The position numbers and the translations under genes were made by a program. A stretch of 30,312 nucleotides of DNA, taken from assembly GCA_945926565.1 (NCBI GenBank), contig CAMELY010000001.1:1-30312 (forward strand). Direction: 5' to 3'. Numbering within the stretch: position 1 is the first letter of the stretch; every line of letters begins with the position of its first letter. Positions 1-12,209 of this stretch are shown here, piece by piece. The notes under the pieces were generated by a model that saw only the letters and a list, made by a program, of their open reading frames with translations, had not been told where the DNA came from and did no database searches. Source of the DNA: an uncultured Clostridia bacterium. GTDB taxonomy: Bacteria > Bacillota > Clostridia > Oscillospirales > Oscillospiraceae.

Positions 1-5
1 TTTTT

Positions 6-129
6 CGAACAAAATCGTAGATTTTGTTCGAGCGTGTCGATCTTTATCGACACGCTGAGGCCCTCTGCTTTCGCTTGCCGAAAGCAGAGGGCCTTTGCCC
101 TGCCGTCCCGTCCGCTGTGTCGGACGGGA
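6..129. repeat. Four consecutive perfect hairpins
   Basis: Four inverted repeats lie almost end to end. Their arms are 6-16/20-30 (11 bp, 3-nt loop), 31-41/46-56 (11 bp, 4-nt loop), 58-73/79-94 (16 bp, 5-nt loop) and 106-114/121-129 (9 bp, 6-nt loop). All arms are perfect. The third is followed by a short T run and could terminate transcription entering from the left. The four stems differ in sequence, so this is not a simple tandem repeat. Function is unknown: stacked terminators, a structured RNA or the edge of a mobile element are all possible. Confidence 0.75.
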
Positions 130-150
130 TATTTCTGTTTTGGAAAATAC

Positions 151-179
151 TTGCTATTTTCTCCTGTCTCTGCTATGCT
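151..179 (+). promoter_or_regulatory. Candidate promoter of the CAP-domain gene
   Basis: TTGCTA at 151-156, a 17-bp spacer and TATGCT at 174-179. A TG at 171-172 gives an extended -10. It lies in an AT-rich stretch between the hairpins and the CAP gene, about 48 bp before the start codon. Motif match only. Confidence 0.5.
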
Positions 180-226
180 GAAGATAACAAAATTTGGAAG
201 CCTTGAGATGAGAGAGGATGGTATTC

Positions 227-1600
227 ATGTACAACTGCAAGCGTGCGCTGGCGCTGCTGCTGACGCTGGCCGTTCTGCTGTTCGCGCTTCCGGCGACCGC
301 GCTGGCGTCGGATGAGACAACGGCAGAGGTTTCCATCGAGGTAACCTATGGCCAGACGGAGGCCAGAACCATGCTGGACATGGTAAACGAATTCCGAACC
401 GGCGATGAGGCGTGGGCATGGAACAGTGACGATACTGAAAAGATCGCCTATTCAGGTCTCCAGCCGTTGGTTTACGACTACGAACTGGAAGCAACTGCCA
501 TGCAGCGTGCTGCGGAGATCGCCCTGTCCTTCAGTCACACCCGGCCCAACGGAACAAGCTGTGCAACCGCATACATCGGCAGCTGGTATAGCCGCGGTGA
601 GAATATCGCGGCTGGAAACAGACTCTCCTCCGCCCAGGCTGTCTTTACAGGTTGGCAGGAGACCGACAAGACCTACATCGGTCAGGGCCACCGGCGCAAT
701 ATGCTTAGCTCCTCCTTTACCGCCATCGGCATCGGCCATGTGTATTTTAACGGTATACACTACTGGGTGCAGGAATTCAGAAATCCTGCCTCTGATGCGG
801 CGGAAACGGAGGCCAATGACGGCAAAACCTCCGTGGATATTGAGCTCCTGCTGTCCGACGCGGAGGTCTCTGTCAGCGCGGAGCCGTCCTCCCTGTCGGT
901 CGTCTGCGGCCAGTCCCAGGCGCTGCCCACGCTGAGCACCACAGTCCGGATGAGCGAGGCCTGGCCCGACAAAGCCAGCACCGTTGGAGTGGACTATACC
1001 TGGTCAGTGGAGGACAGCCAGCTCGCCGCCATCTCCGGAGATACAGTGACCGGTGTGCAAGAGGGAACGACCGCGCTGACGACCGCTGCCCTGGGGCAGA
1101 CAGTCTCTGTCCCACTGACTGTGGAAAAGGCCCCCTGTATCCACTCCTATGACGAAGCAGTGACGAAGCCAGCCTCCTGCACCGAGACCGGCGTGAAGAC
1201 GTATACCTGCGCCAAGTGCGGCGACAGCTATACCGAAACCATCCCGGCCGCAGGCCACACCACAGAAACGCGCAGCGCCAAAGAGCCCGGCTGTACCGAG
1301 GCCGGCTATACCGGCGACGCCGTCTGTACCGTCTGCGGCAAGACCGTTGAGCAGGGGCAGTCTATCCCGGCTACGGGGCACTCCACACAAGTGCGCAGCG
1401 CCAAAGAGCCCGGCTGTACCGAGGCCGGCTATACCGGCGACGCCGTCTGTACCGTCTGCGGCAAGACCGTTGAGCAGGGGCAGTCTATCCCGGCCACGGG
1501 GCACTCCACAGAAACGCGCAACGCCAAAGAGCCCGGCTGTACCGAGGCCGGCTATACCGGCGACGCTGTCTGTACCGTCTGCGGCAAGACCGTTGAGTAG
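227..1600 (+). CDS. Secreted CAP-domain protein, N-terminal part ending at an in-frame amber
   Basis: The ATG at 227 is preferred over the ATG at 218, because the GAGAGG ribosome site at 212-217 touches 218 but is well spaced from 227. A signal peptide (KR, then a long Leu/Ala core, ending near ALA-S) covers residues 1-28. A CAP/SCP domain follows, with the recognisable SHTRP, RGENIA and GHRRNML motifs, so secretion to the cell surface or medium is likely. Next come a bacterial Ig-like segment and Cys-rich units each holding a CxxC pair (CAKC, CTVC). The frame ends at TAG 1598-1600, where the two preceding repeat copies have CAG (Gln). The same frame then stays open to 2944. The gene was therefore probably one protein of about 905 residues; as it stands the product lacks all fibronectin-like domains. 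The substrate or partner of the CAP domain is unknown. Confidence 0.85.
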   Translation: MYNCKRALALLLTLAVLLFALPATALASDETTAEVSIEVTYGQTEARTMLDMVNEFRTGDEAWAWNSDDTEKIAYSGLQPLVYDYELEATAMQRAAEIALSFSHTRPNGTSCATAYIGSWYSRGENIAAGNRLSSAQAVFTGWQETDKTYIGQGHRRNMLSSSFTAIGIGHVYFNGIHYWVQEFRNPASDAAETEANDGKTSVDIELLLSDAEVSVSAEPSSLSVVCGQSQALPTLSTTVRMSEAWPDKASTVGVDYTWSVEDSQLAAISGDTVTGVQEGTTALTTAALGQTVSVPLTVEKAPCIHSYDEAVTKPASCTETGVKTYTCAKCGDSYTETIPAAGHTTETRSAKEPGCTEAGYTGDAVCTVCGKTVEQGQSIPATGHSTQVRSAKEPGCTEAGYTGDAVCTVCGKTVEQGQSIPATGHSTETRNAKEPGCTEAGYTGDAVCTVCGKTVE

Positions 1601-1639
1601 GGCCAGGCTATCCCGGCCACGGGGCACAGCTATCAGTCC
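1271..1639 (+). repeat. Three 123-bp tandem repeats within the CAP gene
   Basis: Three near-identical 123-bp units begin at 1271, 1394 and 1517 and encode a 41-residue unit containing PGC, then CTVC, then IPATGH. The third carries the amber codon at 1598-1600. More diverged units of the same cysteine pattern flank them (CAKC before; CSRC and CTRC after). The high identity points to recent duplication or gene conversion. Confidence 0.9.
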
Positions 1640-2944
1640 ACCGTCACTGCCCCCACCTGCACCCAGCAGGGCTATACCACCCACACCTGCTCCCGCTGCG
1701 GCGACAGCTATGCCGACGCCCCCACCGCTGCTTTGGGCCACAGCTGGGATAAGGGTCAGGTGACAAAAGCGGCGACCTATACGGAAGAAGGGGTCAAGAC
1801 CTACACCTGCACGCGCTGCAATGGGACCAGAACGGAGTCCATTCCCAAAAGCGTTCCGGCCGCTCCCACGATTACCAAGGTGGAAAACGTCAACGGCGGC
1901 ATCAAGGTCACCTGGGGCGCGGTCGCCGGCGCGGAGCAGTACCGGCTGTACGTCTACTCCGAATCTACGGGCAGTTGGAAAAAGGTGACGGACACCGCCT
2001 CCACCAGCGCCACTTTCAATGGTATCAGCGGGATTTCCCTCAAGAGCGGCACCTCCTATCGCTTCACCGTCAAGTGCATCCGTCCGGCTGTCAGCAGCTA
2101 CGACAAGACCGGCAAGACCATCACCTACATCGCCCAGCCCGTTCTCTCCAGTGCCGCAAACGCCACCTCCGGCGTCACTGTCCAGTGGGGCAAGGTCACC
2201 GGGGCAGCCAAGTACCGGGTCTTCCGGAAGGTCAGCGGCGCCAGCAAGTGGGACAAGGTCACCGACACCACCTCTACCAGCTGCACTGATACGACAGCCA
2301 AGAGCGGCACCACCTATATCTACACGGTGCGCTGCATCTCCGGCGACGGCAAGAGCTACACCAGCAGCTACGACGCCAAGGGAAAAACCGTCCTCCGTCT
2401 GTCCAATCCGTCTGTGACAGTGAGCAACACCGCCTCCGGCGTGGCAGTCAAGTGGGGCAAGGTCACCGGAGCCAATGGATATTATGTCTACCGAAAGACC
2501 GACTCCGGCAAGTACAGCAAGATTGCCACCATTAAGAGCGGCAGCACAGTCAGCTACACCGACACTGCGGTCAAAAGCAAGAACGGAACCACCTACACCT
2601 ATACTGTCCGGGCCTATAATGGCTCCACCCTCAGCTCCTATGCAGGGAAGAAGATTGTCCGCCTGACTGCCCCCACCATCTCCAGCGTCACCAACAGCTC
2701 CGGCAGGACGATGACGGTGAAGTGGAACAAGAACAGCTCCGCCACCGGCTACCAGGTCTACTACAAGACCGGCTCCACGGTTAAGACGGTGACGGTCAAG
2801 GGCAGCAGCAGCCTGAGCAAGACGATCTCCGGTCTCACCAAGGGCAGCACCTACACCGTTTACGTCCGCAGCTACAAGACGGTCTCCGGGGTGAACTACT
2901 ACTCCGCCTGGAGCGGCTCCAAGACGGTAAAGATCTCCAAATAG
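1601..2944 (+). pseudogene. C-terminal part of the CAP protein: Cys units and four fibronectin type III-like domains
   Basis: This stretch is in the same frame as the CAP gene and has no stop until TAG 2942-2944. It encodes the rest of the fourth cysteine unit, two diverged units (CSRC, CTRC), then four fibronectin type III-like domains of about 85-95 residues. Each domain has the pattern 'GxxVxWxxVxGAxxYxVY' and ends in a Tyr-rich strand. No SORTAZ-type LPxTG, S-layer or membrane anchor is visible at the C-terminus. There is no ribosome site before the first possible start (TTG at 1733), so separate translation is unlikely. It is expressed only if the amber at 1598 is read through, or if that codon is a sequencing error. 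Confidence 0.75.
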
Positions 2945-2966
2945 CACACAATCAGTCCGGACAACT

Positions 2967-2996
2967 GATGCGGCGCCCCTGCCGGGGCGCCGCATC
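2967..2996 (+). terminator. Hairpin after the CAP gene
   Basis: A perfect 13-bp GC-rich stem (2967-2979 with 2984-2996) with a 4-nt loop starts 22 bp after the stop codon. The following T run is short (GTTTC), so termination strength is uncertain. Confidence 0.6.
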
Positions 2997-3029
2997 GGCG
3001 TTTCAAACAGCGCTCTGATTGGAGCCGTA

Positions 3030-3204
3030 TCACCGGCAGTGCCCAGCCCTCTGGGCGCTGAGATAGTCCGCCAGGGCCAGCTCCGAGCACAGGGTGCGGG
3101 ACAGGCCGCGCTCCAGAACCCGGTCAGCCTCCAGAAGGCGGCGGATCCCCTCTGCCTGAGAAACCGTCTCCAGCATCCGGTCGGCCTCTGCGGACAGGCA
3201 CTGG
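3030..3204 (-). pseudogene. Coding-like tail in a second frame behind the LytTR domain
   Basis: On the minus strand the LytTR frame ends its family homology near 3205. A different frame from there to the stop at 3030 reads like a genuine helical, charged protein end (CLSAEADRMLETVSQ then RRLLEADRVLERG), with GC-rich third positions. Removing one base near 3205 would join it to the LytTR domain. It may be a frameshifted C-terminal tail of that regulator or the end of another gene. I do not recognise the family. Confidence 0.35.
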
Positions 3205-3552
3205 GCCGCCCAGCAGGGCCAGGTAGTGGCTTTTGACCTCTCCCATCTTGCTGCGGCCGATGGGCAGGACGACCCCGTCATCCAGGGTGACCTGATTGGC
3301 GTGAATCCGCTGGATATAGCGGTAGTTCACCAGATATCCCTTGTGGATGCGGATAAAGCCGTGGGGCTGGGTGAGCGCTTCCAGCTTTTCCATGGTCATC
3401 TTGACCTCCAGCGGCGCGCTCCGGTCGGTGAGGTGGAGCAGCTGGTAGTTTCTGCTGCCCTCAATATAGCGGATCTGCTCCCGCTTCAGGGAGAGCAGGC
3501 TGGCGCGGGTGGCGAACTGGATGTAGGCCCCGTCCTGGGTCTGAAGGCAGTT
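3205..3552 (-). pseudogene. LytTR DNA-binding domain fragment without receiver
   Basis: This encodes an essentially complete LytTR domain of about 100 residues, the DNA-binding module of AgrA/LytR/VirR-type response regulators. Visible motifs are REQIRYIEGSRNY, FIRIHKGYLVNYRYI and LPIGRSKMGEV. Such regulators normally carry an N-terminal phospho-receiver domain, and none precedes it here. Upstream the strand runs into a GH3 glycosidase in another frame. The open frame extends to 3124-3579, but its ATG at 3579 lies inside the GH3 reading and has no ribosome site. The last residues of that frame (after LLGG) are Arg/Gly/Pro-rich and look out of frame. I read it as the remnant of a regulator left by a deletion or chimeric join. 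Confidence 0.7.
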
Positions 3553-5041
3553 CTTCGCGTACAGCGTCGTTGAGGGCATAGTGCTTGACGTAGGTGTAGC
3601 AGCCTCTGCTCACGGCGCCCCGGATCTCGGCAGCGGCCATCTTGCCGGCCAGCAGACCGTCCTCGGAGAAGTACTCAAAGTTGCGGCCGCCGAAGGGAGA
3701 GCGGTGGGTGTCAGCGCCGGGGCCATAGAGGCCGGTGACGCCGTTGGCCAGCGCCTCGTCGCCCAGGCACTCGCCCATCTCCTCCACCAGCTTCTGGTTC
3801 CAGGTGCAGGCCATGACCACCTCGCTGCAGAACTGGACGCCGCTGATGCCGTTGACCAGGCCGTTCAGGCCGGCGGGGCCGTCAATGTCCACGGTGGCGG
3901 GCTTGGAGACGGAGGCGATGCTGATGGTCTGATAGCCGCCGGTGGTGATCAGGTTGACCATATCCTCCACAGAGAGCTGCTCCAGCAGCTGTTGCCACTT
4001 GGGATCGTCATAGTCCAGGCCGATCACATCCGCCAGGGTGAGGCCGTTGTCCTGGATCACGATGGGCTCGGCGTCGGGATCCTCCGGCACGGAGTAATCC
4101 TCAATCGCGGCAATCAGCTCGGCAGAGGCCTCCCGGTCGGGGGTGCGCTGGGTGGGCAGGGTGCCCTCCCAGTCGGCACGGGAGATGACCACGATGGCGG
4201 TGTCGGAGAACTCCTTGGCGGAGTCGATCAGATCCCCATACTCGGAGACAGCGGGCTCATAGATGTTAAAGTCATTGCCCATCATGTTGAACACGTTGCC
4301 CTCGTACTCACCGGTTTTCAGATTGGAGTAGAAGTCGAGCAGCCCGTCGTTCACGGTGAAGCCAGCCACTTCCAGGCCGCCCTTCACGGAGACGTTCTTG
4401 GTCTCGTCGCCGGAGCCGGAGCCCGCGCCGCCGTAGGCCGGGGCATAAGAGCCGTAGCCAAAGACGTTGACCTTCTTCTCCGCCAGAGGCAGGGTGCTGC
4501 CCTCGTTCTTCAGCAGACCGATGCCCTCGCCCTCCAGCTCCTGAGTCTTGGCCTTGGAAGCCTCTTCCGCCGCGGTGATCTCGTCCGAGGAGCTCTGGCC
4601 GGAGAGGAACTGGTTGACGACCACGTTAAAGCGGGCCACGGCGATGTTGAGCACCAGCAGCGCCGCCAGCACCACGCACAGCAGGGCAGAGCCCACCTTC
4701 CGCACGCTGCGGATGCGCACCGCCCGGAAGATAAACAGGCCCAGCACAGCCACTGCCGCCACGGCAAACACGATGGCAATGATCATGGTCGCCTTCTCCA
4801 CGTGAAAGCCCAGGTCGACCTCATCGCCTTCTGCCAGCTCGATTTGCGGGGGGCCCATCTCCGGCATCGACTCGCCCTCGGGCGCAGCGCCGTCCCCGGG
4901 CATCTCTGCCATCTCTTCTGTCTCAGCCGGGGCGTCGGTGGGCGCCGCGGCGGTGTCCGTTGCCCAGCAGGGCAGTGCGGCCGCCATCACCAGCGCCAGG
5001 GACAGCGCCAGCAGGGAGAGCCGTTTCAGTACTTGCTTCAT
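3461..5041 (-). pseudogene. Truncated membrane-anchored GH3 glycoside hydrolase, fused out of frame to LytTR
   Basis: The start ATG at 5041 has an AGGAGG site just upstream. Residues 1-27 are a signal-like hydrophobic segment, followed by an acidic Pro/Glu stretch and two membrane helices (about 85-107 and 117-138). The GH3 C-type domain starts near 171 (GIGLLKNEGSTLPL) and comes before the barrel domain, a permuted order known in some ruminal GH3 beta-glucosidases. Barrel motifs include DGPAGLNG, RSPFGGRNFEYFSED and KHYALND (486-492). Family homology stops at KHYALND (about 3566). The usual QETNR continuation and the later nucleophile Asp are absent, and the last 34 residues are the LytTR region read in the wrong frame. 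The product should be catalytically dead. The substrate of the intact enzyme, probably a beta-glucoside or related plant sugar, cannot be told. Confidence 0.8.
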
Positions 5042-5435: not shown

Positions 5436-6308
5436 TCACACCGGTCCACTCCGCCGGGACGGCAGGGCGGGTTCCGGCCCCCTTTGCTCCGTTCTCCGGC
5501 AGGAGGCGGAGGGCGGCTCCCGCAGCTCCCGCTTCCGTGGCGGGGCTCCCTCCAGCTCCCCCTTCAGCTCGGTCATGTGCTGCCAGTAGCGCTTGGGGAC
5601 GTTTCCCATGCGTAGCTTGGGGTTGTACCGGCCCTCGATGGCGATGGTGTCGTAAAACCGCTGCCACAGCCGCTGATAGTCCTCCTCCCGGGCGTCCGCC
5701 TGGGGAAACTCCATATGCTCCACCGGCACAATCGCCCACCGGCCCCTCTGGTGGACCAGGGCCTCATGGTGGGTGTGGTCGTAGAGCAAAAAGGTCTCTG
5801 TATTGAACCGCTGGCAGAAGTGGGGCCGCAGCAGGGGCAGCACCCGGTTTTTCGGGCTGATCTCCCCCCACAGCAGACCCCGGCAGTCGGCAAACCGGGT
5901 AAAGCCCTTGAGCAGGTGGGCCTCGTTGTACAGATGCCCCACCGCCTTGTTCAGCCGGTCCACCCGGTCATCCGCCAGCCAGTAGGTCACCCCCGGCCCC
6001 ACGTCCCAGGCCAGCCGGATGAACTGCCAGATGGCGCACTCCTTCTCCGGCATGCAGGTGAGAAAGGCGTGGCTCACCAGCCGCCGGGCCTCCTGGGACA
6101 CCTTGTCCCGCAAATCCCGGTAGACCTGCCGGGCCCGGGCCTCATCCGTCTCCACCGTCCGCTGGGGATAGAGGGAGATCTTCTCCTCCTCCGGGCCGGC
6201 AAAGGCCATGGGGGTCTCAAAATAGCGAAAGCTCTCGTCCACGCAGGTGAGAAAGCCGGCAAAGCTGCCGTCATAGCAATAGGACACCTGAGTCCACTCC
6301 GGTCTCAT
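5436..6308 (-). CDS. TIGR03915/DUF4130-type DNA metabolism protein
   Basis: A 290-residue protein of the family that pairs with a radical-SAM partner in clostridia and is sometimes found in bacteria fused to uracil-DNA glycosylase-like domains. Recognisable parts are the opening YCYDGSFAGFLTCVDE, a central KGFTRFADCRGLLWGEISP and a C-terminal region with EHMEFPQADAREEDYQRLW followed by RYNPKLRMGNVPKRYW. Its ATG overlaps the TGA of the radical-SAM gene (ATGA, 6305-6308), so the two are translationally coupled. The last 40 or so residues are rich in Pro, Arg and Glu and probably disordered. The family is annotated as a probable DNA metabolism protein; its reaction is not known. A catalytic role alongside the radical-SAM enzyme in DNA repair or modification is inference from this pairing and from the operator sites upstream. 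Confidence 0.85.
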   Translation of the reverse strand: MRPEWTQVSYCYDGSFAGFLTCVDESFRYFETPMAFAGPEEEKISLYPQRTVETDEARARQVYRDLRDKVSQEARRLVSHAFLTCMPEKECAIWQFIRLAWDVGPGVTYWLADDRVDRLNKAVGHLYNEAHLLKGFTRFADCRGLLWGEISPKNRVLPLLRPHFCQRFNTETFLLYDHTHHEALVHQRGRWAIVPVEHMEFPQADAREEDYQRLWQRFYDTIAIEGRYNPKLRMGNVPKRYWQHMTELKGELEGAPPRKRELREPPSASCRRTEQRGPEPALPSRRSGPV

Positions 6309-7582
6309 AGGCCGCCTCCAGTCTCAAACAGGGAGAGCTGCTCCGGCTGATAGGGCAGCAGGTTGGGCCGCTCCAGCTCCACCAGGTGGCGGAGCACTCC
6401 GTCCGGCCGCACCCGCAGGCCGTCGGTCATCCGGCCGGAGCAGGTGATAAAGTACTGGGCCCGCTTGAGCACCACTCCCAGCTTTTTTAGCCCCTCGTAG
6501 TCCAGCCGGCAGGCCCGGCGGGCGGTGAGAATCCGTCTGGCCGAGGTGACGCCGATCCCCGGCACTCGGAGCAGGGCCTCATAGTCTGCGGAGTTCACCT
6601 CCACTGGGAAGAACTCCATGTGCCGCAGGGCCCAGCAGCATTTCGGATCCAGCTTGGGGTCGAAGTTGGGGTTGCTCTCATCCAGCAGCTCCGAGGCGTC
6701 AAAGTGATAGAACCGGAGCAGCCAGTCCGCCTGATACAGCCGGTGCTCCCGCAGCAGCGGCGGCTGAAAGCCCTCCGGGGCGGGCAGCAGGCTGGAGTTG
6801 GAAACCGGCATATAGGCGGAGTAAAAGACCCGCTTGAGCCGGTATTTCTGGTAGAGATTCTGGGTCAGATTCAAAATATGCCGGTCGTCCTCCGGGGTGG
6901 CCCCGATGATCATCTGGGTGGACTGGCCCGCCGGGGCAAACCGGAGGGCCTGCCGGGCGGGGAGCTTGCGCAGCTCCCTCCGGCTCTCGGCGGAGCCGTC
7001 CCGGATGAGGGCCATGGGCTTCAGAATCGCGTCCTTCTTCTTGTCCGGGGCCAGCAGGCTCAGGCTCTTGGCCGACGGCAGCTCAATATTCACGCTCAGC
7101 CGGTCTGCCAGCAGCCCCAGTCGCCAGGTGAGCTGAGGGTCCGCCCCGGGAATCGCCTTGGCGTGGATATAGCCCCCGAAGCCGTATTTCTCCCGCAGCA
7201 GGGACAGGGCCCGGATCATCAGCTCGGTGGTGTAGTCCGGGTTGCGGATTACCGCCGAGCTGAGGAACAAGCCCTCGATATAGTTCCGGCGGTAGAACTG
7301 GATGGTCAGCTCCGCCAGCTCCTCCGGGGTGAAGGCGGCCCGGCGGGTGTCGTTGCTCCGGCGGTTGACGCAGTACTGGCAGTCGTAGACGCAGCAGTTG
7401 GTCAGCAGCACCTTGAGCAGCGTCACGCACCGGCCGTCGGCGGAGAAGGTGTGGCAGCAGCCCGCCGCCATGGTGGAGCCCATCCGCCCCTGCCGGGCCT
7501 TCCGGTCCAGGCCGCTGGAGGTACAGGCGGCGTCATATTTGGCGGCGTCGGTAAGCACCTCCAGCTTGTCCATCAGCTCCAC
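6305..7582 (-). CDS. Putative DNA modification/repair radical SAM protein (TIGR03916 type)
   Basis: A 425-residue radical-SAM enzyme. The 4Fe-4S cluster motif CxxxCxxC is at C64, C68 and C71 (CVYDCQYC), preceded by a Cys-containing N-terminal region (GCCHTFSADGRC). A helix-hairpin-helix-like segment near residue 340 (LLRVPGIGVTSARRIL) suggests nucleic-acid binding. A start at GTG 7582 is chosen because a GGGGAGGG ribosome site sits 8 nt upstream and the family begins at this point. It is the first gene of the operon, driven by the promoter at 7639-7667 with two LexA-type boxes between promoter and gene. The reaction is unknown; the family name reflects its linkage to DNA repair proteins. Confidence 0.9.
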   Translation of the reverse strand: MELMDKLEVLTDAAKYDAACTSSGLDRKARQGRMGSTMAAGCCHTFSADGRCVTLLKVLLTNCCVYDCQYCVNRRSNDTRRAAFTPEELAELTIQFYRRNYIEGLFLSSAVIRNPDYTTELMIRALSLLREKYGFGGYIHAKAIPGADPQLTWRLGLLADRLSVNIELPSAKSLSLLAPDKKKDAILKPMALIRDGSAESRRELRKLPARQALRFAPAGQSTQMIIGATPEDDRHILNLTQNLYQKYRLKRVFYSAYMPVSNSSLLPAPEGFQPPLLREHRLYQADWLLRFYHFDASELLDESNPNFDPKLDPKCCWALRHMEFFPVEVNSADYEALLRVPGIGVTSARRILTARRACRLDYEGLKKLGVVLKRAQYFITCSGRMTDGLRVRPDGVLRHLVELERPNLLPYQPEQLSLFETGGGL

Positions 7583-7608: not shown

Positions 7609-7622
7609 CGAACATCCGTTTC
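7609..7622 (-). promoter_or_regulatory. LexA-type operator, distal box
   Basis: Read on the plus strand it is CGAACATCCGTTTC. Compared with the Gram-positive SOS box CGAACRNRYGTTYG it fails at one R and at the last G. It lies 26 bp before the radical-SAM start and 1 bp from the second box, at about +10 to +23 of the predicted transcript. Confidence 0.55.
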
Positions 7623-7623
7623 T

Positions 7624-7637
7624 GGAACTGTTGTTCT
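7624..7637 (-). promoter_or_regulatory. LexA-type operator, proximal box
   Basis: GGAACTGTTGTTCT contains the perfect core GAAC-N4-GTTC (7625-7636). It abuts the -10 element (7639-7644) and overlaps the predicted start site, where a bound repressor would block transcription. Its inner bases fit the SOS consensus less well than its arms. Confidence 0.6.
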
Positions 7638-7638
7638 A

Positions 7639-7667
7639 ATTATGACAGCGCCGCTCCTGTTTGTCAA
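7639..7667 (-). promoter_or_regulatory. Promoter of the radical-SAM/DUF4130 operon
   Basis: On the minus strand: TTGACA (7662-7667), a 17-bp spacer and CATAAT (7639-7644). This is a near-consensus housekeeping promoter. A strong promoter with overlapping operators is the usual design of a tightly repressed gene. Confidence 0.75.
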
Positions 7668-11081: not shown

Positions 11082-11720
11082 TCAAAGGGCGCGGACGAGT
11101 TTGGTGGCGACCCCCACAATCCGGGCCTCTCCCGTCTCAAAGTCCCCCATGGGGACGATTCTGGGCTCGTAGGCCGGATTTTCCGGCTGGAGGATGACCC
11201 AGTCCCCCTGGCGTCGAAACCGCTTGAGGGTGGCGTCCTCCTGCCGCACCAGGCAGACCACGATCTGGCCGTTTTCCGCCTGGGGCTGCTGGTGGATGAG
11301 CACCAGATCCCCCGTCTGAATGCCCGCGTTCTTCATGCTGTCCCCGGAGACCTCCAGGTAGAAGTATTCCTCCGGCCGGGAGACGTCCGCCGAGGCGTAG
11401 CCCTTGACCTCCTGCTGGGCCAGGGTGGGAATCCCCGCCTTGATCACCCCCAGGATGGGGATCAACTGCTCCCCCGGCACCCGGAGACTGTCGCTCCGGC
11501 TCTCCCGGGGGACGTCGTAGCCCTGGAGCCACAGGGGATCCACCCCCAGGCGCACCGCCATGTCGGTGACCACCCCCGCCTTGGGCTCCCGCTGGCCCAG
11601 CACATACCGGTTCAGGGTCTGCGGCTTCATCTCCAGCAGCCGGCCCAGGGCCTCGTAGTTCAGCTGCCGCTCCTCCATCAGCGTCCGAAGGCGCTTTCCC
11701 AGGCTCTCCTGTTTGTCCAC
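11082..11720 (-). CDS. LexA-like regulator: XRE helix-turn-helix plus S24 autoprotease
   Basis: A 212-residue repressor. Residues 8-62 form a Cro/CI-type helix-turn-helix (YEALGRLLEMKPQTLNRYV), not the winged helix of classical LexA. Residues 88-212 are an S24/LexA peptidase domain: cleavage-site pair A95-G96 (GVIKAGIP), catalytic S128 (SGDSMKNAG) and K166 (ATLKRF). All parts needed for RecA-stimulated self-cleavage appear present. The GTG start at 11720 has AGGAGG 7 nt upstream; a TTG at 11741 would have none. It precedes pepF in a probable operon. Likely DNA-damage responsive, but targets are unknown; it may be a host regulator or a domesticated phage repressor. Whether it binds the SOS-type boxes at 7609-7637 and 11902 cannot be told from sequence. 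Confidence 0.85.
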   Translation of the reverse strand: MDKQESLGKRLRTLMEERQLNYEALGRLLEMKPQTLNRYVLGQREPKAGVVTDMAVRLGVDPLWLQGYDVPRESRSDSLRVPGEQLIPILGVIKAGIPTLAQQEVKGYASADVSRPEEYFYLEVSGDSMKNAGIQTGDLVLIHQQPQAENGQIVVCLVRQEDATLKRFRRQGDWVILQPENPAYEPRIVPMGDFETGEARIVGVATKLVRAL

Positions 11721-11768
11721 GGGGTTCCCTCCTGTCTCCAAACGGTGGGGTTTTTCCTATCTTTTGTC

Positions 11769-11901: not shown

Positions 11902-11915
11902 CGAACAACCGTTTT
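11902..11915 (+). promoter_or_regulatory. LexA-box-like site behind the orphan promoter
   Basis: CGAACAACCGTTTT shares the pattern CGAACANCCGTTTY with the distal box of the radical-SAM operon and fails the same two SOS-consensus positions. It sits at about +7 to +20 of the predicted transcript, close to the relative position of that box. Confidence 0.4.
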
Positions 11916-12015: not shown

Positions 12016-12098
12016 TGGAGGAGAATGGATTCGAACCATTGTAGGCGCAAGCCAACAGATTTACAGTCTGCCCCCTTTAGCCACTTGGGTACTCCTCC
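12016..12098 (-). tRNA. tRNA-Tyr(GTA)
   Basis: An 83-nt class II tRNA with a long variable arm. Acceptor arms GGAGGAG/CTCCTCC are at 12092-12098 and 12017-12023, with discriminator A at 12016. The anticodon loop reads CTGTAAA with anticodon GTA, and the T-arm has GGTTCGAATCC. CCA is not encoded. It is cotranscribed behind tRNA-Thr (38-bp gap). Confidence 0.95.
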
Positions 12099-12136
12099 GT
12101 ATGAAGTTGGGCTGAAATCGCAGAGCCAAACCAAAG

Positions 12137-12209
12137 AGCTGGTAGACGGACTCGAACCCCCGACCTGCTGATTACAAATCAGCTGCTCTACCAACTGAGC
12201 TATACCAGC
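12137..12209 (-). tRNA. tRNA-Thr(TGT)
   Basis: A 73-nt tRNA with acceptor arms GCTGGTA/TACCAGC (12203-12209, 12138-12144), a D-arm with AGCTCAGTTGGTAGAGC, anticodon loop TTTGTAA (anticodon TGT) and T-arm GGGGGTTCGAGTCC. CCA is not encoded. First gene of the tRNA pair. Confidence 0.95.

Follow-up and report, generated by a model that had tools for sequence, protein, structure and literature searches.

LexA is the bacterial DNA-damage switch. That it would control a radical-SAM/DUF4130 gene pair is not a new proposal, as such control was already predicted in 2013 for CAC3343-CAC3344 of C. acetobutylicum, in a study with footprinting and expression data (PMC3828012). This study deals with one species and with butanol and butyrate stress, and its passages on the pair contain neither a survey of orthologues nor a regulator replacement; CAC3343 is equated here with TIGR03916 by the shared name, not by sequence comparison (PMC3828012). 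In Clostridioides difficile, LexA uses the same operator, GAACN4GTTT or GTTC, at lexA, recA and uvrB, and the terms "radical" and "DNA modification" are absent from the main text of that paper (PMC4234289). The table of LexA targets in Streptomyces venezuelae includes vnz_31145, named Radical SAM protein, which may be a relative of TIGR03916 (PMC9380542). In Bacteroidetes, SOS control was predicted for COG4277 relatives, as a COG1573-COG4277 pair belongs to a predicted network under non-canonical LexA, and the authors cite reports on Verrucomicrobia and Alphaproteobacteria (PMC8565304). DUF4130 has been linked by gene neighbourhood to SplB-like radical-SAM proteins and to uracil DNA glycosylases (PMC3765255).

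The window, i.e. the whole stretch of 30,312 nucleotides that was analysed, contains such a pair on the minus strand. The radical-SAM gene (6305–7582) matches TIGR03916 at 634.3 bits (cut-off 343.5) and starts at a GTG at 7582 or at an in-frame ATG at 7573. Its neighbour (5436–6308), with which it overlaps by 4 nt, matches TIGR03915 at 207.7 bits (cut-off 112.25) and Pfam DUF4130 at 147.1 bits. Both genes are thus adjacent and above the curated TIGR cut-offs, in agreement with the original prediction of an operon, and a DUF4130 ORF is present in 164 of the 171 loci fetched in this work. The prediction had also described the enzyme as a radical-SAM protein with a helix-hairpin-helix. TIGR03916 bears out the family, but the Pfam matches to radical-SAM (23.2 bits) and helix-hairpin-helix (22.9 bits, the motif at residues 327–356) are both below their cut-offs. 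The CxxxCxxC motif is formed by C64, C68 and C71, and C20, C43 and C52 are also invariant in alignments of 15 and 37 sequences. A sequence search of solved structures gave no match for the protein at E 0.001; for its predicted model (pLDDT 80.0), general radical-SAM folds are found among the 50 matches listed. The spore photoproduct lyase SplB is a radical-SAM DNA repair enzyme, and the DUF4130-associated enzyme has been called SplB-like (PMC3765255), but SplB and the protein in the window belong to different family models.

Upstream of the pair, direct reading of the minus strand from 7667 to 7639 confirms the proposed promoter, with TTGACA (7662–7667) as the -35 element and, after a 17-nt spacer, CATAAT (7639–7644) as the -10 element. 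The two boxes that had been described downstream of it are also present. The first, GAACAACAGTTC (7625–7636, minus strand), is a perfect GAACN4GTTC palindrome that follows the -10 element and covers the likely start site; its assignment as a LexA box draws on the sequence and on conservation in orthologues. The second, GAAACGGATGTTCG (7609–7622, minus strand), agrees at 7 of 8 palindrome positions, and a second box is also found in all three sampled genus mates that have the operon.

Palindromes of this size might arise by chance, or be leftovers of common ancestry without any regulatory role, and the raw counts would agree with this. The window contains nine GAACN4GTTC matches with at most one mismatch, when 8.0 are expected, and the whole metagenome-assembled genome (MAG, 1.44 Mb) contains seven perfect sites against six for the reversed pattern and, with one mismatch, 181 against 483. 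Counting in the window or in the MAG was accordingly rejected as a measure of significance, and since these counts are at chance level, the case for the boxes rests on comparison. There, the half-sites are conserved but the spacers and positions are not, the promoters of orthologous operons are about 9-fold and 15-fold enriched over control pieces in two sets of loci, and the boxes are absent from a group of operons led by a repressor gene of their own and from most LexA-less genomes, both discussed below. Given this, we regard a chance or purely ancestral origin as extremely improbable.

The first of the two sets comes from the order of the window. Of its 394 sampled genomes, 101 have a TIGR03916 match above the cut-off, and 91 of these 101 loci, including that of the window, were taken in; one has practically no upstream sequence, leaving 90. 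Within 200 nt upstream, 64 of the 90 loci have a GAACN4GTTC match of at least 7 of 8 positions (32 perfect). The same loci supplied two controls: 25 of 312 200-nt pieces from further upstream reach this level (one perfect), which makes the enrichment over these ~9-fold, and so do 48 of 455 coding pieces, all of them imperfectly. In a ranking of 1536 palindromes (256 half-sites with six spacers), GAAC/N4 (64 loci) comes second behind AACA/N2 (68 loci), the median being 5. AACA/N2, which ranks first in both sets, is the inner part of the GAAC/N4 palindrome. Within the family of the window, 19 of 21 loci have the box. In its genus all four sampled genomes with the operon, the window's included, have a perfect and a second box; a profile search of three other genomes of the genus gave no TIGR03916 match.

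The second set consists of 80 named loci, the best 80 of at least 587 confirmed matches, two of which are also in the order set. It takes in Lachnospiraceae, Paenibacillus, Enterococcus, a Negativicutes MAG and Coriobacteriia. Here, the box is found at 58 of the 80 loci, perfect at 33 of them, and in 15 of 306 control pieces, of which none has a perfect one; the enrichment is ~15-fold, and GAAC/N4 is again second after AACA/N2. The loci in both sets share descent, so they are not independent in these statistics. The conservation upstream of orthologous TIGR03916/TIGR03915 operons that had been proposed as a test is thus found at most loci, within the order and beyond it.

A canonical LexA is encoded in the genome of the window (TIGR00498, 209.3 bits, cut-off 110.95), and its gene has a GAACN4GTTT-type box, AGAACGAATGTTTG (also given as GAACGAATGTTT), 73 nt upstream. 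The comparison with SOS genes of the same genome is nevertheless divided: lexA has a box, but recA has none at 7 of 8 positions or better, in the window genome as well as in 11 LexA-positive relatives. Judging by sequence, recA of these genomes is apparently not a member of the GAAC-type LexA regulon, unlike in C. difficile, where recA has a box (PMC4234289). The recA genes of two LexA-less genomes (G007 and G264) have a 7/8 match to GAAC, which we take as chance. No uvrB above the cut-off was found in the window MAG, which is 76.5% complete.

The lexA promoters of the order were also considered. The GAAC box (at least 7 of 8 positions) is found at 15 of 31 upstream regions, which belong to the 30 lexA genes with the highest scores in the order sample and to that of the window genome, and which come mostly from genomes other than those with the operon. 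Autoregulation through the GAAC motif is hence not general in the order. In these regions AACA/N2 (19), AAAC/N4 and an A-run all rank above GAAC/N4, which is fourth. The lexA promoters were rejected as a training set, so the motif was not derived from them, and about half of those examined lack the GAAC box.

The presence of the box follows that of the repressor. With canonical LexA called at E < 1e-32 for TIGR00498 and boxes counted within 300 nt, the order set has 63 loci with a box and 13 without in LexA-positive genomes, compared with three with and 11 without in LexA-negative ones (Fisher p 1.3e-5, uncorrected for kinship). Two of the three LexA-negative genomes with a box are fragmented MAGs, and the third has a LexA match of 2.1e-31, which narrowly misses the threshold; incomplete MAGs are also found among the 11 box-less LexA-negative genomes. 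Box conservation, a canonical LexA in the genome and a box at its own gene all speak for the original prediction, and LexA control of the radical-SAM/DUF4130 operon is well supported at the level of sequence. For the operon itself, we infer LexA binding and induction by damage.

A second regulator in the window could also be considered as the binder of the operon boxes. A non-canonical LexA-like gene (11082–11741, minus strand), separate from the operon and adjoining an M3 peptidase gene, encodes HTH_3 and Peptidase_S24 domains with the Ala-Gly, serine and lysine residues for self-cleavage intact. It has a LexA-type box upstream, AAAACGGTTGTTCG (11902–11915, minus strand, 7 of 8 positions), and further upstream lie genes for tRNA-Tyr and tRNA-Thr (12016–12209, minus strand). 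Its location in the same window, its cleavage residues and its GAAC-type box would fit such a role. However, its HTH is of another type than that of LexA, and genes at least 62% identical to it occur in only seven of 61 genomes of the family, compared with an operon box in 19 of the 21 family loci. Among these seven genes, itself included, five have a box within 350 nt upstream and two do not; none of three relatives at 44–52% identity has one. The promoter of the canonical lexA of the window genome moreover has the same kind of box. That this regulator instead of canonical LexA binds the boxes of the operon is therefore very unlikely in our judgement; it is more likely a LexA target, and from the box in front of it this gene may itself be under LexA control.

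Returning to canonical LexA, we consider it very likely that the operon is an SOS pair, that its relatives keep it under damage control through whichever repressor the host has, and that the two proteins probably repair a lesion. In the undamaged cell, LexA dimers would bind the two boxes and block RNA polymerase. With a transcription start 7 nt downstream of the -10 element, the boxes would lie at about -4 to +8 and +11 to +24. RecA filaments formed on damaged DNA would then cause LexA to cleave itself, and the operon would be transcribed. The promoter, the boxes, the canonical LexA and the conservation are in silico observations. The proteins, a predicted DNA-binding radical-SAM enzyme and its DUF4130 partner, would probably repair or process a lesion. 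In the relatives, the operon would mostly be under damage control by the host's own repressor. At most loci this would be through a LexA box directly upstream and at a few probably through one in front of a leading dinB gene, whereas the operons of one clade begin with a gene for a CI/434-like, putatively autocleavable HTH-S24 repressor. The target of this repressor would apparently be ACAAC-N5-GTTGT, in its own promoter and, for one family, in that of recA as well.

Many of the loci without a box carry other SOS parts, being either S24-led or dinB-led. After removal of two duplicates, 169 non-redundant loci were sorted using the 300 nt upstream: 125 have the box, 13 are led by an HTH-S24 gene, five by dinB, one by a different S24 gene and dinB, 24 have none of these and one is too short. 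The searches for S24 and dinB covered the fetched upstream sequence, which is shorter than 900 nt in ten of the 171 loci. In the five dinB-led, box-less loci, 7/8 boxes are found upstream of dinB in L043 (two) and L041 (one, from a MAG in which no LexA was found), and L017 has only a 6/8 match there; two of the five end before the dinB promoter. A later search of all loci added a sixth dinB-led locus, L047, with a 7/8 match that lies inside dinB, so its label as a box locus is doubtful. Y-family polymerase domains were identified in the one dinB-type protein that was scanned, and the other dinB proteins match it at 5.5e-112 or better, except L041 (1.1e-92) and L047 (9.9e-88). In L157, the different S24 gene is followed by dinB and then by the radical-SAM pair, and neither type of palindrome was found upstream.

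Among the 24 loci with neither box, dinB nor S24, nine have the weaker variant AAACN4GTTT within 200 nt, and one has less than 100 nt of upstream sequence. In G007 (locus L027), a LexA-less genome in a single contig, a Crp-like regulator gene ends 53 nt upstream from the radical-SAM match.

In the radical-SAM tree, all 13 S24-led loci fall into a single clade (SH-like support 98), and the S24 character requires one change on this tree compared with a mean of 12.7 after shuffling. None of the 13 has a LexA box; the corresponding Fisher value for S24 against box, 4e-9, reflects a single origin and is thus no independent evidence. Within the clade, the spirochaete Brucepastera pairs with G361, which belongs to the family of the window, and this pairing points to a horizontal transfer of the unit.

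The one S24 repressor that was scanned, from G213, has HTH_3 and Peptidase_S24 domains. The repressor matches solved structures of LexA and of the lambda and 434 repressors, with phage 434 CI at 33%, and the Ala-Gly site, the serine and the lysine are kept in all 13 S24 proteins of the clade. It is not a canonical LexA, but a non-canonical protein of the CI-like HTH plus S24 type. Relatives at 54% identity or more are present in at least seven of the 394 genomes of the order, a number that may miss some, as at most seven first-look candidates were scored per genome. All are in genomes without canonical LexA: the best TIGR00498 match in these seven has E 2.5e-29 or weaker, which is under the cut-off (on this scale E 4.0e-28 corresponds to 97.9 bits, the cut-off being 110.95 bits). 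Six of the seven genes lie upstream of the radical-SAM gene, and that of G282 is about 1.1 kb away from it. The seventh is that of G178, a genome with no listed TIGR03916 match.

The same gene order, S24, radical SAM, DUF4130, is found in positions 1–4600 of MT839076.1 (L321), an entry from human faeces labelled Bacteriophage sp., with the ACAAC-N5-GTTGT palindrome at 9 of 10 positions. This is probably bacterial DNA mislabelled as phage.

The palindrome was first spotted by eye upstream of the S24 genes. Of 14 S24 promoters, 12 have it with at least 9 of its 10 positions matched. The other two are those of L161 (8 of 10) and G282, where palindrome sites are located 1.7 kb upstream. The next four S24 matches, at 35–43% identity, have no palindrome at 9 of 10. 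In 13 S24 promoters it ranks first among 7168 pairs of half-site and spacer, a ranking that is partly circular because the motif came from those same promoters. In G282 (contig C4, about 63.7–65.4 kb; L269 and L314), a transposase-like ORF, recognized by eye, splits the palindrome pair from the S24 gene, and control of the S24 operon may be broken in this genome.

An independent test is provided by recA. In family f24, which we call the Gemmiger group on the presumption that G282 is Gemmiger sp. An194 (they have the same gene), the recA promoter has the exact palindrome in six of six S24-bearing genomes. It ends 18–19 nt upstream of a TATAAT or TATACT in all six, with five different inner spacers. 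One of these six, G178, was outside the exact-site search of six genomes described below. Of 24 other recA promoters, none reaches 9 of 10; nine of the 24 are from f24 genomes that lack LexA and in which the search gave no close S24 relative.

Alternatively, the S24 protein could be a captured phage repressor that controls only its own operon, and something else would bind the recA site. The resemblance to phage 434 and lambda CI fits this, as does G361, which has the palindrome at its own S24 operon and none at recA. The small number of perfect sites in each genome also fits it. In a scan allowing one mismatch, ACAAC-N5-GTTGT is below the reversed-pattern control in seven of seven genomes, so only exact sites were read, and a global regulon scan was rejected for the same reason. 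There are one to six perfect sites per genome, 18 over the six genomes searched, where the reversed pattern has 11. The 12 in five f24 genomes comprise five at recA, four at the S24 operon (one of them that of G282) and three elsewhere; the remaining six are in G361, the S24 operon among them. Against this restricted role stand the exact recA site and its distance of 18–19 nt to the -10-like element in every S24-bearing f24 genome, and its absence from the 24 other genomes; we consider the restricted role unlikely, though less so than the alternatives discussed for the window.

We suggest as the probable course of events that the S24 repressor arose as first gene of the operon and became the SOS repressor in the LexA-less Gemmiger group, acting on the operon and on recA through ACAAC-N5-GTTGT as a new operator, and that S24, radical SAM and DUF4130 cross phyla as a self-regulated cassette for the damage response, in line with the spirochaete copy nested in the S24 clade. 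From these sequence patterns, a dedicated repressor has apparently replaced LexA and captured recA.

Comparable regulators have been described. The Bacteroidetes regulators are likewise S24 proteins with a lambda-CI-like N-terminal domain that replace LexA, but their motifs differ (CTAA-N5-TTAG and GGA-N5-TCC), their pair includes a uracil-DNA glycosylase, and the paper describes the regulator family as restricted to Bacteroidetes (PMC8565304). FddR of Francisella resembles the S24 repressor as a damage-response repressor that is autoregulated through a palindrome, probably of phage origin and co-opted. It differs in its motif (GTG-N11-CAC), in its divergent target genes and in that canonical SOS genes are not induced, whereas the S24 gene here is the first gene of a repair operon and recA is an apparent target (PMC13148647). 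Among open-licence PMC papers, judged mostly by titles and the beginnings of abstracts, we found none on an S24-led operon or on SOS control in Gemmiger. Nor did we meet there an account of comparable breadth and statistics for the box conservation, of box-less operons that carry different SOS components, or of an additional S24 protein in place of LexA that has a palindrome of its own and apparently targets recA.

The comparison thereby places an orphan enzyme pair among the DNA-damage responses of several phyla, so that a role in repair can be tested directly. The S24-led clade offers a natural experiment in regulator replacement, where the operon brings its own, presumably self-cleaving, repressor; the palindrome of this repressor appears at recA in members of one family that lack LexA. 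The S24 case would then represent a step, found in common gut bacteria, on the way from a local switch to a rebuilt SOS network.
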